Below, in pieces: positions 2,261-38,384 of a stretch of 64,000 nt of DNA. The stretch's first letter is position 1. Each line of letters begins with the position of its first letter. This DNA is from Frateuria edaphi (lineage in GTDB: Bacteria; Pseudomonadota; Gammaproteobacteria; Xanthomonadales; Rhodanobacteraceae). Location of the stretch: positions 744,001-808,000 of the forward strand of contig NZ_CP088251.1 in the NCBI RefSeq assembly GCF_021117405.1. Reading direction: 5' to 3'. The translations under genes were made by a program, and so were the position numbers. The notes under the pieces are model-generated. The model saw nothing but the letters and a program-made list of their open reading frames with translations, had not been told where the DNA came from and made no database searches.

Positions 2261-4129
2261 ATGGCTGACCTGCTTTCCACCGGCGTCTCCGGCCTGCTCG
2301 CCGCCCAGGTGGGCCTGAGCACCACCGGCCACAACGTGTCCAACGCCAACACCGACGGCTACAGCCGCCAGCAGGTGAGCTTCGCCGCGCGTGCGCCGCA
2401 GGCGCAAGGGCAGTACTACGTGGGCACCGGCGTGGACACGCAGGCCGTGCAGCGCGCCTACAGCCAGTACCTCAACACGGCGCTGTGGTCGGCCTCCTCT
2501 TCCAAGGGGCGTGCGGACGCCTACCAGGCGCTCACCGACCAGCTCAACAACCAGCTTTCGGGCAGCAGCAACCTGCAGGCGTCGCTGGACACCTTCTTCG
2601 GCGCGGTGCAGGACATGGCCAACGCGCCAGCCGATGCCTCCGCGCGCGGCGTGCTGCTGGCTCGCGCCGGTGCGCTCGCCAGCACCTTCCGTGCGCTGTC
2701 CGGACAGTTCGGCAGCCTCGATGGCCAGGTGCAGCGCCAGCTCACCGACACCGTCGCCTCGATCAACAGCGACAGCGCCGCGATCGCCAAGCTCAACGAA
2801 CGCATCCGCTCCTCCACCGGCACGCAGCCCTCGGACCTGCTCGACCAGCGCGACGCGCTGATCAAGAAGCTCTCCGGCGAAGTAGGCATCAGCGTGGCGA
2901 CGCAGAACGACGGCACGCTGAGCGTGTTCGTCGGCAACGGCCAGGCGCTGGTCAGCGGCACGCAGTCCTACGAACTGGGCACGGCGCCGAACGCCTACGA
3001 CGCGACCCGGCTGGAAGTGGTCGACAAGGGCACCGGCGCGGTGCTGAGCGGACGCATCGGCGGTGGCACGCTGGGCGCGCTGCTGGACTTTCGCGGCAAC
3101 GTGCTCGACCCGGCGCAGAACCAGCTCGGCCGCGCCGCGCTGGCGATGGCCGACGCGTTCAACGCCCAGCACGCGCAGGGCGTGGACCTCAACGGCCAGC
3201 TCGGCGGCGATTTCTTCACCGTCGCCGGTCCGGCCGTGCAGGCCGCCAGCGGCAATACCGGCAGCGCCACGCTTTCGGCGGGCATCGCCGACCTCGGCGC
3301 GCTGGGCAGCCAGGATTACACGCTGTCCTTCGACGGCACCGCCTGGAACCTGCGCGACGGCAGCGGCGCCGCGGTGGCGATGAGCGGCACCGGCACCGCG
3401 GCCGATCCCTTCCTGGCCGGAGGCCTGAGCTTCGTGGTCGGTGGCGGCGCGGCGAGCGCGGGCGACAGCTTCCGCATCCAGCCCACCCGCAACGCGGCCG
3501 GCAGCATCGCGGTCGCGATCACCGATCCCAACAAGATCGCAGCCGCCGTCCCGCTGCTGGGCAGCGCGGCCAGCGCCAACACCGGCACCGGCGCGGTCGG
3601 TGCGCTCACGGTGGCCGATGGCACCGATCCCAACCTGTTCACTGCGTCCAGCATCGTGTTTTCCTCGCCCACGACCTACAGCATCGACGGCGGAGCGGCG
3701 CAGACCTTCACCGCCGGCACGCCGATCGTGCACAACGGCTGGAGCCTGACCCTGGACGGCGCGCCGTCCGCGGGCGATACCTTCGGCGTCAAGGCCAACG
3801 CCAACGCGCGCGGCGACAACGCCAATGCGCTCAAGCTCGGCGCGGTCGCCAACCTGGGCGTGCTCGATGGCGGCGCCACCAGCGTCGGCCGCGCCTACGG
3901 CCAACTGGTCGGGCAGGTCGGCAGCGCCGGCTCGCTCGCCGACGACGCGGCCAAGACGCAGACCGCCGTCTACAACCAGGCGATGGCATCGCAGCAGAGC
4001 GTCAGCGGCGTGAACATGGACGAGGAGGCGGCCAACCTGGTGCGCTTCCAGCAGGCCTACCAGGCGTCGGCGCAGATCATCACCGCCGCCAACACCGTGT
4101 TCAACGCGCTGCTCGGCGCGTTCAAGTAA
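2261..4129 (+). CDS. flgK: Flagellar hook-filament junction protein FlgK (HAP1)
   Basis: FlgK is the first of two junction proteins between hook and filament, exported through the flagellar type III apparatus. The N-terminus (MADLLSTGVSGLLAAQVGL, then NTDGYSRQQV) is the axial-family D0 helix. The C-terminus (SVSGVNMDEEAANLVRFQQAYQ, ending in FNALLGAFK) is the matching helix. The 622-residue length is normal for FlgK. The central 250-500 region is Gly/Ala/Thr-rich and variable. flgL begins 12 nt after the stop. Confidence 0.96.
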   Translation: MADLLSTGVSGLLAAQVGLSTTGHNVSNANTDGYSRQQVSFAARAPQAQGQYYVGTGVDTQAVQRAYSQYLNTALWSASSSKGRADAYQALTDQLNNQLSGSSNLQASLDTFFGAVQDMANAPADASARGVLLARAGALASTFRALSGQFGSLDGQVQRQLTDTVASINSDSAAIAKLNERIRSSTGTQPSDLLDQRDALIKKLSGEVGISVATQNDGTLSVFVGNGQALVSGTQSYELGTAPNAYDATRLEVVDKGTGAVLSGRIGGGTLGALLDFRGNVLDPAQNQLGRAALAMADAFNAQHAQGVDLNGQLGGDFFTVAGPAVQAASGNTGSATLSAGIADLGALGSQDYTLSFDGTAWNLRDGSGAAVAMSGTGTAADPFLAGGLSFVVGGGAASAGDSFRIQPTRNAAGSIAVAITDPNKIAAAVPLLGSAASANTGTGAVGALTVADGTDPNLFTASSIVFSSPTTYSIDGGAAQTFTAGTPIVHNGWSLTLDGAPSAGDTFGVKANANARGDNANALKLGAVANLGVLDGGATSVGRAYGQLVGQVGSAGSLADDAAKTQTAVYNQAMASQQSVSGVNMDEEAANLVRFQQAYQASAQIITAANTVFNALLGAFK

Positions 4130-35550: not shown

Positions 35551-36183
35551 TCAATCCGGCTCTTTCGGCACCTCGCCGTAGCCCGCCGCCTGCAGCTCCT
35601 CACGCGTGGTCAGCGCCGACAGCGAGAGCTTCATGCCCGGCCGGATGTTGGCGGCCACGAAGTTCTGGTGCCCGAGCGCCTGCCCGCACACCACCATGTC
35701 CACATTGGCCTGGTGCAGTTGCCGGATCAAGCCTGCGTTCGGGTTGGGGCGCCCGAACTTCTTCCGGTAGGCCGCGTCCGACAGCGCGAGGTCGACGCCT
35801 TGTCCGTAGAACAGCACCACCAGGTGCACCTTGTCGTTGGGCACGCCCGCCAGCGCATACAGGTTGAGAAGCTTGGCCGCGGTGTGCAGCCGCCGGTTGA
35901 TTTCACCGTGGCTGGGTTCGTCGCTGTCGATGTCGATGTACAGGCGATGGTCGGCCCGGGTCGAGGGCATCAGCGCGTCCGGGCCCACCGGCAACACGCC
36001 GCCGGCGCCATGGATGCGCGGGTAGGTGAGGCGCGGGTCGGGGCGCGGGCGCGAGACCGTGAAGGCAACGGCCGCGGCACAGGCCACCAGCAGCAGGACG
36101 ACGCCGCTCCAGGCCAGCATGCGGCGGATCGGCGAAGGGGCGAGATCATCGTCGGACATGGTGGTCGCTTTGCTTTGGGACAT
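35551..36183 (-). CDS. DsrE-family membrane-anchored protein
   Basis: This 210-residue protein has one N-terminal TM helix (about 22-44) and a soluble DsrE/DsrF-like domain. The domain shows VHLVVLFYGQGVDLAL, FGRPNPNAGLIRQLHQANVDMVVCGQAL with Cys166, and ALTTREELQAAGYG. Such domains bind small sulfur species or act in sulfur transfer; the single Cys is in the usual VCGQ position. An AGGAG-type site lies about 11 nt before ATG 36183; ATG 36159 is an alternative. It lies downstream of two cytochrome c genes on the same strand. Confidence 0.82.
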   Translation of the reverse strand: MSQSKATTMSDDDLAPSPIRRMLAWSGVVLLLVACAAAVAFTVSRPRPDPRLTYPRIHGAGGVLPVGPDALMPSTRADHRLYIDIDSDEPSHGEINRRLHTAAKLLNLYALAGVPNDKVHLVVLFYGQGVDLALSDAAYRKKFGRPNPNAGLIRQLHQANVDMVVCGQALGHQNFVAANIRPGMKLSLSALTTREELQAAGYGEVPKEPD

Positions 36184-36323
36184 CCCTGAGTGGTCTCCTC
36201 CGGCCGGGTCGCCCCGGCTCGCGAAATGCGCCAGTCAGTGTAGGAACGGCGCGTGAATTGGCAGGCAAAAACCAGGGCCCGCAATGGTGGTTGTGACGCT
36301 GCGCACACTGCTCGGCCGGTCGC

Positions 36324-37232
36324 TCAATGCGCCGGTTGCGCACCCAACAGGTGGCCGTTGACACGCTGGCCATACAGCGACATCGGCGTGTCGTGGAAGG
36401 CCTTGCGCGTGGCGGCCAGGTCGCCTTTGAAGCGCGGATCCTGCGGGCGCTCGTGCGCATCCATGAACATGGCCACGTCCCAGGCTTCCTGATCGCTCAA
36501 GCTGCCGCCGCGGCTGAGCGGCATGTTCGCCTTGATGAACGCGCTGGCCTTGTCCAGCTCGTGCATGCCGGCGCCCCAGTTGAACGAGTCCGGTCCCCAT
36601 AGCGGCGGGAAGACATAGTCGCCGGCGACCTTCTGGCCCTGGCCATTCGCGCCGTGGCAGAGCGCGCAGTCGCGCTGGAACACCGCCTGGCCGCGCGCGT
36701 AGTCCGGTTTCCTTGCCGGCGCCGGGACCTTGGGGTAACCGGCTCCCTCGAGCTTCACGCCGTGCGGCGCGCCTTGCGCCATCCACGACGAATAGGTTTC
36801 CAGCGCGAGCATCACCTTGTCGTCCAGCGGCGGGGCCTTGCCGTTCATGCTGTACATGAAGCAGCCCTGCAGCCGCTCGCCGTAGCTGTTCACGTGGCCG
36901 TTCTTCTTGCGGTATTGCGGATACATGCCATAGGCGCCCCACAGCGGCGCCGCGTCGGCGAGCCGTCCCGCGTCCAGGTGGCAGTTGACGCAGGCGAGCC
37001 CGTTGCCGACGTAGGCCGGTGCGGCCTTGCGCGTGTGCAGGAAGATCTCGCGGCCCAGCCGGACCATGTCGCCGTACGGCCCTTGCGGGATGGCCGATTC
37101 GGACGGTGGCGCGAAGATCGGCGGCTTGGTCGATGGCGTCGCGACTTCGGCGGCGTGCGCATCCATCGGGCTGCGATCGGCGCATCCGCCGAGCGCGAGC
37201 GTGGCGAGCAGCAGGTAGAGGCGCTTGCTCAT
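36324..37232 (-). CDS. TsdA-like di-haem cytochrome c lipoprotein
   Basis: This 302-residue protein has a lipoprotein signal (LATLALGGC, Cys17) and two haem sites, CVNCH (81-85) and CALCH (189-193). Between them, QGCFMYSMNGKAPP carries Cys124 at the position of the axial Cys ligand of thiosulfate dehydrogenase TsdA, and SMNGK matches that family. TsdA interconverts thiosulfate and tetrathionate in the periplasm; this activity is inferred, not shown. The start overlaps the cytochrome c4-like gene by 4 nt. It could also be another SoxXA-related cytochrome. Confidence 0.78.
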   Translation of the reverse strand: MSKRLYLLLATLALGGCADRSPMDAHAAEVATPSTKPPIFAPPSESAIPQGPYGDMVRLGREIFLHTRKAAPAYVGNGLACVNCHLDAGRLADAAPLWGAYGMYPQYRKKNGHVNSYGERLQGCFMYSMNGKAPPLDDKVMLALETYSSWMAQGAPHGVKLEGAGYPKVPAPARKPDYARGQAVFQRDCALCHGANGQGQKVAGDYVFPPLWGPDSFNWGAGMHELDKASAFIKANMPLSRGGSLSDQEAWDVAMFMDAHERPQDPRFKGDLAATRKAFHDTPMSLYGQRVNGHLLGAQPAH

Positions 37233-37888
37233 CGTCCGCCGCTCCCGGCCGGAAGCGGTTGCGCGGCGAACCACTTTGCCACCGCGGCGATGTCCTCGGC
37301 GCTCAGCGCACGGCTCAGGTGCTGCATCAGCTGCAGCGGATCGTTGCGCCGCGCGCCCTGCTGCCAGGCTTTCAACTGCGCCTCGATGTAGCTCGCCGGC
37401 TGCCCGGCCAGCGGCGGGAAGTGGGCGCCCACGCCCACGCCGCCGGGACCATGGCATTGCTCGCAGGCCGGCACCCGTTGCGACCAGCGCCCGCGCGTGG
37501 CGAGCGTCGCGCCCAGGTCGTTCGCCGACGGCTGCGACGAAGGCGGAATCGCCGGCACGGGCAGTCGGCTGTAGTAGGTGCCGATCGCCTGCCGCTCGTC
37601 CTCGGACAGAGCCCGCGCGATCGGTTGCATCACGGCGTTGGCGCGCGTGCCGGCGGCGTAGTCGGCCAGTTGTCTGGCGACATAAGCGGCATCCAGCCCA
37701 GCCAGGCGTGGAAAGCCCGCCGCTGCCTGGCCCGCGCCGTCCGCCCCATGGCAGGACTGACAGGGCGGCGCGCCATGACCGTTGCCCTGGCTGACGAGCT
37801 CCTGCACCGACGCGGCATGTGCCAGCAGCGGCCATGCCCCCGCAATCAGCGCGCTCCCCAGCACGCGCACGGTCAATCCCCTGCGCAC
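37229..37888 (-). CDS. Cytochrome c4-type di-haem protein (TsdB-like partner)
   Basis: This is a periplasmic electron carrier with two haem-binding motifs, CQSCH (43-47) and CEQCH (142-146), in two similar halves (FPRLAGLDAAYVARQLADY and FPPLAGQPASYIEAQLKAW), as in cytochrome c4. The GTG at 37888 begins a good signal peptide; the frame is open to 37945 but the extra residues are not signal-like. Its stop overlaps the TsdA-like start, as in tsdB-tsdA pairs, where the c4-like protein accepts electrons. Confidence 0.82.
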   Translation of the reverse strand: MRRGLTVRVLGSALIAGAWPLLAHAASVQELVSQGNGHGAPPCQSCHGADGAGQAAAGFPRLAGLDAAYVARQLADYAAGTRANAVMQPIARALSEDERQAIGTYYSRLPVPAIPPSSQPSANDLGATLATRGRWSQRVPACEQCHGPGGVGVGAHFPPLAGQPASYIEAQLKAWQQGARRNDPLQLMQHLSRALSAEDIAAVAKWFAAQPLPAGSGGR

Positions 37889-38117
37889 TCTCGCACCCCC
37901 GACATCCCGATCGTTCCCGCGGGCAGGCGGTCCCCGCGGTTCCAAGGACGTGAGGAATAGCGAGCCTTGCGTGCAGAAAGCGTCAGCAGCCTGGACAGCA
38001 GCCGTCCGGTTGCGTGCATGCAGGGGCGCTGGGCGCCCGCGCGACCGCCGGGCGCAACAGCGTGACGTCGACGCGACGGAACGGCCTCATCGCAACGGCA
38101 GCGGCCTGCGGCGAAGG

Positions 38118-38384
38118 TTACGCAGCGGACTCGTCGCTCGCGTCGTACGCGCTCGCCAGCACCGCGGCGGCGGCGGCGTAGAGCAGCACCGGGACGTCCT
38201 CGCGCAGGCGCAGGGCGGCCAGTACCGCGGCGATCTGCGGATCGTGGTGCAGCGGCAAGCCCAGCGCGCGGGCGCGGGCCAGCAGCAGGTCGAGCGCTTC
38301 GGGCGGCATCGGCGCGGGCTTGGTCTCCGGACCGGCCAGACGCAGGGTGACGCGCCGTTGTGGCGGCGGCAGGCCGTTGCTCAT
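38118..38384 (-). CDS. FlhB C-terminal-domain-like protein (FhlB/FlhX)
   Basis: This 88-residue protein resembles only the cytoplasmic C-terminal half of FlhB after autocleavage (DLLLARARALGLPLHHDPQIAAVLAALRLREDVPVLLYAAAAAVLASAY). It has no TM segments and no NPTH site. Stand-alone proteins of this kind are known beside a FliK-like gene and can substitute for the cleaved FlhB fragment. ATG 38384 overlaps the upstream FliK-like stop. Confidence 0.85.
   Translation of the reverse strand: MSNGLPPPQRRVTLRLAGPETKPAPMPPEALDLLLARARALGLPLHHDPQIAAVLAALRLREDVPVLLYAAAAAVLASAYDASDESAA

Follow-up and report, generated by a model that had tools for sequence, protein, structure and literature searches.

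In a 64,000-nt stretch of Frateuria edaphi DNA (contig NZ_CP088251.1, positions 744,001 to 808,000; hereafter the window), three minus-strand genes probably make up a thiosulfate-to-tetrathionate module, a reading we hold with moderate confidence, in which a split TsdBA enzyme would work with a DsrE-family protein that holds its substrate or product. The TsdBA enzyme is known; its DsrE partner is real and apparently undescribed, and the location of the module among motility genes looks incidental. In the open-licence literature on TsdA with DsrE and on periplasmic DsrE proteins, covered largely as titles, abstracts and passages, the association was not found. The genes and their principal features are as follows.

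37229-37888, minus strand: tsdB-like gene, coding for a Sec-exported c4-type dihaem cytochrome; best PDB match 5lo9
36324-37232, minus strand: tsdA, coding for a dihaem c-type lipoprotein, putative thiosulfate dehydrogenase / tetrathionate reductase
36978-36992, minus strand: TsdA haem 1 CxxCH (residues 81-85, with His85 as proximal ligand), invariant in 43 sequences
36861-36863, minus strand: TsdA Cys124 in GCFMYSMNGK, expected haem 1 distal ligand from alignment, invariant in 43 sequences
36654-36668, minus strand: TsdA haem 2 CxxCH (residues 189-193), invariant in 43 sequences
36522-36527, minus strand: TsdA Asn236-Met237, with Met237 the expected haem 2 distal ligand from alignment and conservation
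35551-36183, minus strand: dsrE, coding for a DsrE-family protein with an N-terminal membrane anchor and a predicted periplasmic domain
36061-36117, minus strand: DsrE transmembrane span, residues 23-41 (mean Kyte-Doolittle 2.42 over 19 residues)
35686-35688, minus strand: DsrE Cys166 (VVCGQAL), proposed thiosulfonate-carrying residue, invariant in 38 sequences

The three ORFs lie where the original prediction placed them, and the 4-nt overlap (ATGA) of the tsdB-like gene with tsdA and the GCFMYSMNGK cysteine between the CxxCH sites, both of which it had pointed out, are seen in the ORFs. The tsdB-like ORF starts with GTG, and a TTG at 37945 is a possible alternative; ~140 nt separate tsdA from dsrE, a gap whose size calls for caution in assuming that dsrE shares a transcript with tsdA. 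The PDB E-values, the co-occurrence of the genes in Frateuria genomes and the adjacency of dsrE and tsdA across the family (see below) exclude chance, and the three genes are real. A search for sigma-70-like promoters near them found none, which carries little weight in GC-rich DNA, and a PADLOC run gave no result. On reading the sequence, we also noted a short protein resembling the FlhB C-terminus, whose end precedes tsdB on the same strand (38118-38200, minus).

The cytochrome pair is almost certainly an ordinary split TsdBA, and thus known biology, as judged from sequence comparisons and a predicted structure. TsdB is a c4-type dihaem cytochrome encoded directly before tsdA, a well-established gene order seen in Halomonas, among others (PMC9237845); it has CxxCH motifs at residues 43-47 and 142-146, and Met87 and Met188 are the likely ligands. 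Its best PDB match is to residues 8-193 of 5lo9 (E 3e-39), and that of TsdA is to residues 240-512 of the same entry (E 2e-86); 5lo9 is the TsdBA fusion of Marichromatium purpuratum, and TsdA and TsdB each match one half best. TsdA has a lipobox (LGGC, Cys17) and combines a SoxA/TsdA-type domain with a cytochrome c domain, with two CxxCH sites. Both of these, Cys124, Asn236 and Met237 are invariant in the 43 TsdA sequences. Cys124 aligns with the cysteine of A. vinosum TsdA (GDCFERS), a known haem 1 ligand, and with that of 5lo9; Met237 is the counterpart of the haem 2 ligand that was investigated in C. jejuni TsdA (PMC5146829).

A SoxA-type cytochrome was considered for the 36324-37232 product and rejected on three grounds. 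Its haem-free predicted model (pLDDT 87) superimposes on 5lo9 with Z 35.8 (264 residues, rmsd 1.8) and on A. vinosum TsdA with Z 28.5-29.5, whereas the best SoxA row reaches only 10.8. It scores 52.6 bits against TIGR04484, the curated SoxA model, whose cut-off is 110. In a tree of the homologous domain, the check that had been suggested at the outset, it groups with both characterised TsdA proteins, and SoxA stands apart (100/100), although branching inside the TsdA grouping is poorly supported. The PDB matches, the TsdA model and the tree thus bear out the identities first proposed for both cytochromes. The Frateuria pair has in common with M. purpuratum TsdBA the fold, the haem ligands and the order of tsdB before tsdA, and its gene order is that of the split tsdB-tsdA of Thiomonas, Pseudomonas stutzeri and Halomonas; it differs from the Marichromatium enzyme in being encoded by two genes and not one fusion, in its lipoprotein TsdA, and in the dsrE that comes after tsdA.

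The third protein was predicted to be a membrane-anchored DsrE-family member with a conserved cysteine, and so it appears: there is one hydrophobic span, and Cys166 never varies in the sequences aligned. Membership of the DsrE/DsrF superfamily follows from a PF02635 match of 41.6 bits (cut-off 22.7) and from fold matches to 2pd2 (Z 15.6, 108 residues, rmsd 1.5) and 1l1s (Z 15.4); no second PF02635 gene was found in the window's genome. The only cysteines are Cys35, inside the hydrophobic span, and Cys166, the sole cysteine of the soluble domain. TusD, DsrE and DsrE3A have the same fold and a conserved cysteine, but they act in the cytoplasm, with TusA or DsrFH as partners, whereas the Frateuria protein is predicted to be membrane-anchored and periplasmic, with one soluble-domain cysteine. 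The predicted anchor and the lack of DsrF, DsrH or TusA neighbours in the window do not fit a cytoplasmic DsrEFH/TusBCD relay. Metallosphaera DsrE3A reacts with tetrathionate to give a Cys-S-thiosulfonate (PMC4175335), and by analogy we lean, if narrowly, towards the view that DsrE uses Cys166 to act on thiosulfate or tetrathionate; that this chemistry is transferred from a cytoplasmic subfamily counts against the proposal.

The attachment of DsrE to a TsdBA pair, at first an unfamiliar arrangement, proves to be a recurrent module and no local oddity, and the co-occurrence of these genes in relatives, which the original prediction had asked to be counted, is strongly conserved. Among 54 tsdA places in 147 Rhodanobacteraceae genomes, which are related and therefore not independent, a same-strand dsrE lies within 3.6 kb of tsdA at 52, upstream of tsdA at 46 of these and downstream at six, all in Frateuria. 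All six Frateuria genomes examined have tsdA and dsrE together, and five have tsdB. In Frateuria flava (L128 / L068) we found no tsdB match beside tsdA and dsrE, and a 1939-codon ORF occupies the tsdB place; tsdB is, from these sequences, lost or disrupted there. A set of 80 named tsdA loci includes DsrE at 51 and TsdB at 75, with those lacking DsrE mainly in Burkholderiales or on cut-off contigs. Since most Burkholderiales tsdBA loci have no dsrE, DsrE is not required for TsdA.

Two gene orders recur. Type I is dsrE (secreted)-SBP (solute-binding protein, PF13531)-tsdB-tsdA. Type II, tsdB-tsdA-[porin]-dsrE (membrane-anchored), occurs in Frateuria, Rhodanobacter sp. T12-5 and Lysobacter telluris. 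The last two have a porin-like gene separating tsdA from dsrE, which in Rhodanobacter sp. T12-5 matches Porin_O_P; there is none in the window. Type II DsrE proteins form one clade in the tree (100/98), away from type I DsrE, so that by phylogeny tsdBA is linked to two lineages of DsrE; that both side and lineage switch speaks for function. A second cluster, a type I dsrE-tsdBA with TlpA-/DsbG-like genes downstream, is present in one Frateuria genome (G003:C1:1498379-1501468; L071).

Class-level TsdA loci lacking DsrE suggested that the linkage is limited to the family, a view overturned by plasmid records. Twelve such records have dsrE within ~5.2 kb of tsdA (several are near-identical Paraburkholderia fungorum plasmids), and dsrE lies beside tsdBA on both alpha- and betaproteobacterial plasmids, with gene assignments backed by profile searches. 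An Acetobacter ascendens plasmid has the order dsrE-SBP-SBP2-tsdB-tsdA followed by a cbb3-type oxidase, and a P. fungorum plasmid has DsbC-DsrE-TlpA-SBP-Tat protein-SBP-tsdB-tsdA. DsrE also adjoins a different enzyme. DoxDA oxidises thiosulfate to tetrathionate and is unrelated to TsdA; a dsrE-SBP-doxDA order surrounds close DsrE relatives in three class-level genomes, with PF04173 and PF07680 in the third gene of the two that were scanned, and recurs in three further genomes from one of those families. By gene order, DsrE is a recurrent partner of tetrathionate-forming enzymes, whether TsdBA or the unrelated DoxDA.

In the module as we propose it, after characterised TsdA enzymes, haem 1 (His85/Cys124) would be the site where two thiosulfate ions join into tetrathionate; haem 2 (His193/Met237) would relay the electrons to TsdB, the c4-type cytochrome, and TsdB, we infer, to a terminal oxidase; the cbb3 oxidase gene ccoN is found in the window's genome. 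DsrE is predicted to be held in the inner membrane by its anchor, with the soluble domain facing the periplasm; its Cys166 may react with either tetrathionate or thiosulfate, and the resulting Cys-S-thiosulfonate would keep substrate or product beside the tetrathionate-forming enzyme. A search of the window's genome for SoxA returned a sole match, the TsdA of the module, below cut-off; with no SoxA in the genome, tetrathionate should be the end point of oxidation, barring some other route.

DsrE could instead take no part in catalysis and serve as a periplasmic scavenger or sensor of sulfane sulfur or thiosulfonate, guarding thiols from tetrathionate. Such a role would suit the DsbC-, DsbG- and TlpA-like thiol proteins of related clusters and the ArsR-type DNA-binding domain in frame with some dsrE genes, but we think it unlikely, as DsrE is linked more tightly to tetrathionate-forming enzymes than to thiol proteins, and there are no thiol proteins near the window genes.

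A second alternative keeps the enzyme and turns it round, as a tetrathionate reductase fed via TsdB, like Campylobacter jejuni TsdA. TsdA enzymes are bifunctional in vitro, and the Asn-Met beside haem 2 is common to the oxidation-biased MpTsdBA and the reduction-biased CjTsdA (PMC5146829). Direction is therefore not readable from sequence. We nevertheless rate reversal as decidedly unlikely: terminal oxidase genes come after tsdBA in relatives, the accessory genes also accompany DoxDA, an oxidising enzyme, and the module is present in thiosulfate-oxidising Dyella. A genome that is very probably that of Dyella thiooxydans ATSB10, a thiosulfate oxidiser (PMC4919399), carries it with dsrE upstream of tsdA. 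The oxidase genes, the swap with DoxDA and D. thiooxydans all favour oxidation, which is likely the direction in vivo.

It is also improbable that dsrE is an independent neighbour travelling with tsdBA on mobile DNA. The ~140-nt gap would allow it, as would the several clusters that lie on plasmids with transposases nearby, but it predicts neither the placement of dsrE, in different lineages, on either side of tsdBA nor the same dsrE-SBP pair next to DoxDA, which is unrelated to TsdBA but catalyses the same conversion.

The window module sits between cheW and fliK/cheA genes, and flagellar and chemotaxis genes flank the module at all Frateuria loci of type II examined; the second, type I copy of one Frateuria genome lies elsewhere, without motility neighbours. 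The link to taxis once suggested by this setting, in which the module would couple sulfur redox state to chemotaxis, is extremely improbable and was rejected, as such neighbours are confined to Frateuria, with tsdBA-dsrE lying elsewhere in other genera, and none of the three proteins showed a signalling domain in a profile search.

We return to the proposed thiosulfate-oxidising module and to variants of its DsrE slot, which in some clusters is filled by a Tat-exported protein that weakly resembles DsrE. A Methylobacterium radiotolerans plasmid has the order Tat protein-SBP-(LysR)-tsdB-tsdA with oxidase genes, and a Gluconobacter oxydans 621H plasmid has Tat protein-SBP-DoxD. Five Tat proteins aligned with the DsrE profile (hhalign) over ~63 C-terminal columns, with the conserved cysteine in register and a score of 33.9, against 21.0 for the best of 60 column shuffles, 14.4 on reversal and 16-20 for unrelated profiles; the hhalign probability was 41% with five sequences and 35% with one. 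The Tat protein has no DsrE match in Pfam and no match in the PDB, and its homology to DsrE is a lead only.

Acidithiobacillus ferrooxidans offers the closest parallel for this slot. There AFE_0042, which carries a Tat-signal protein annotation, precedes genes for a solute-binding protein and DoxDA, and all of these increase on sulfur (PMC2754497). According to a review AFE_0042 codes for a ~25 kDa non-haem thiosulfate dehydrogenase, which does not reduce ubiquinone or horse cytochrome c (PMC6335251); by gene order it resembles the Tat protein. The AFE_0042-0043-doxDA operon shares with the modules described here the reaction, the solute-binding protein and a Tat-signal protein in the first slot, a slot that operons of this type in other genomes fill with the weakly DsrE-like Tat protein or, in other families, a true DsrE. 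The A. ferrooxidans oxidase is DoxDA, whereas Frateuria has TsdBA and lacks the solute-binding and Tat proteins; neither has a match in the window's genome at the limits used, which leaves Frateuria with a minimal set. A broader idea, which we offer tentatively and regard as doubtful, is that periplasmic DsrE-fold proteins are overlooked thiosulfate-handling partners swapped between TsdBA and DoxDA, that the AFE_0042 type belongs to the same superfamily, and that the DsrE of the window may itself bind thiosulfate and activate it for TsdA.

Many soil and acidophilic bacteria convert thiosulfate to tetrathionate, and usually just TsdA and DoxDA are considered. A periplasmic DsrE beside either enzyme, often with a solute-binding protein, would be a new component that may present thiosulfate or capture tetrathionate, and the link offers a place for the orphan non-haem thiosulfate dehydrogenase of Acidithiobacillus. 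The module would also aid annotation of thiosulfate oxidation in Dyella and Rhodanobacter; in the genome report of D. thiooxydans, sulfite oxidases and rhodaneses are mentioned but TsdA is not (PMC4919399).

Several further dsrE contexts were observed. The type II clade is adjoined (99/96) by fusions of DsrE with a BLH-type phosphatase domain, and the nearest of these phosphatase-like fusions (L085:9824-10849 and L086:9574-10716, both minus) have no tsdA nearby. Rhodanobacteraceae-like dsrE-SBP-tsdBA clusters occur on the MAG contigs JAGQJE010000319.1 (L157, labelled Myxococcales) and CAJCJD010000206.1 (L172, Eremiobacteraeota), which are probably binning errors or transfer. At six loci in Dyella, Rhodanobacter and relatives, and Frateuria G003, an ArsR-type helix-turn-helix is in frame with dsrE with no intervening stop (L133, L134, L136, L143 and L156, at ~3160-3850, plus; L071, at 11004, minus). 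Those inspected have a Shine-Dalgarno-like AAGGAG and an internal ATG ahead of the signal peptide, and the ArsR-DsrE product may act as a sensor that binds DNA while held in the membrane, with its DsrE domain in the periplasm.
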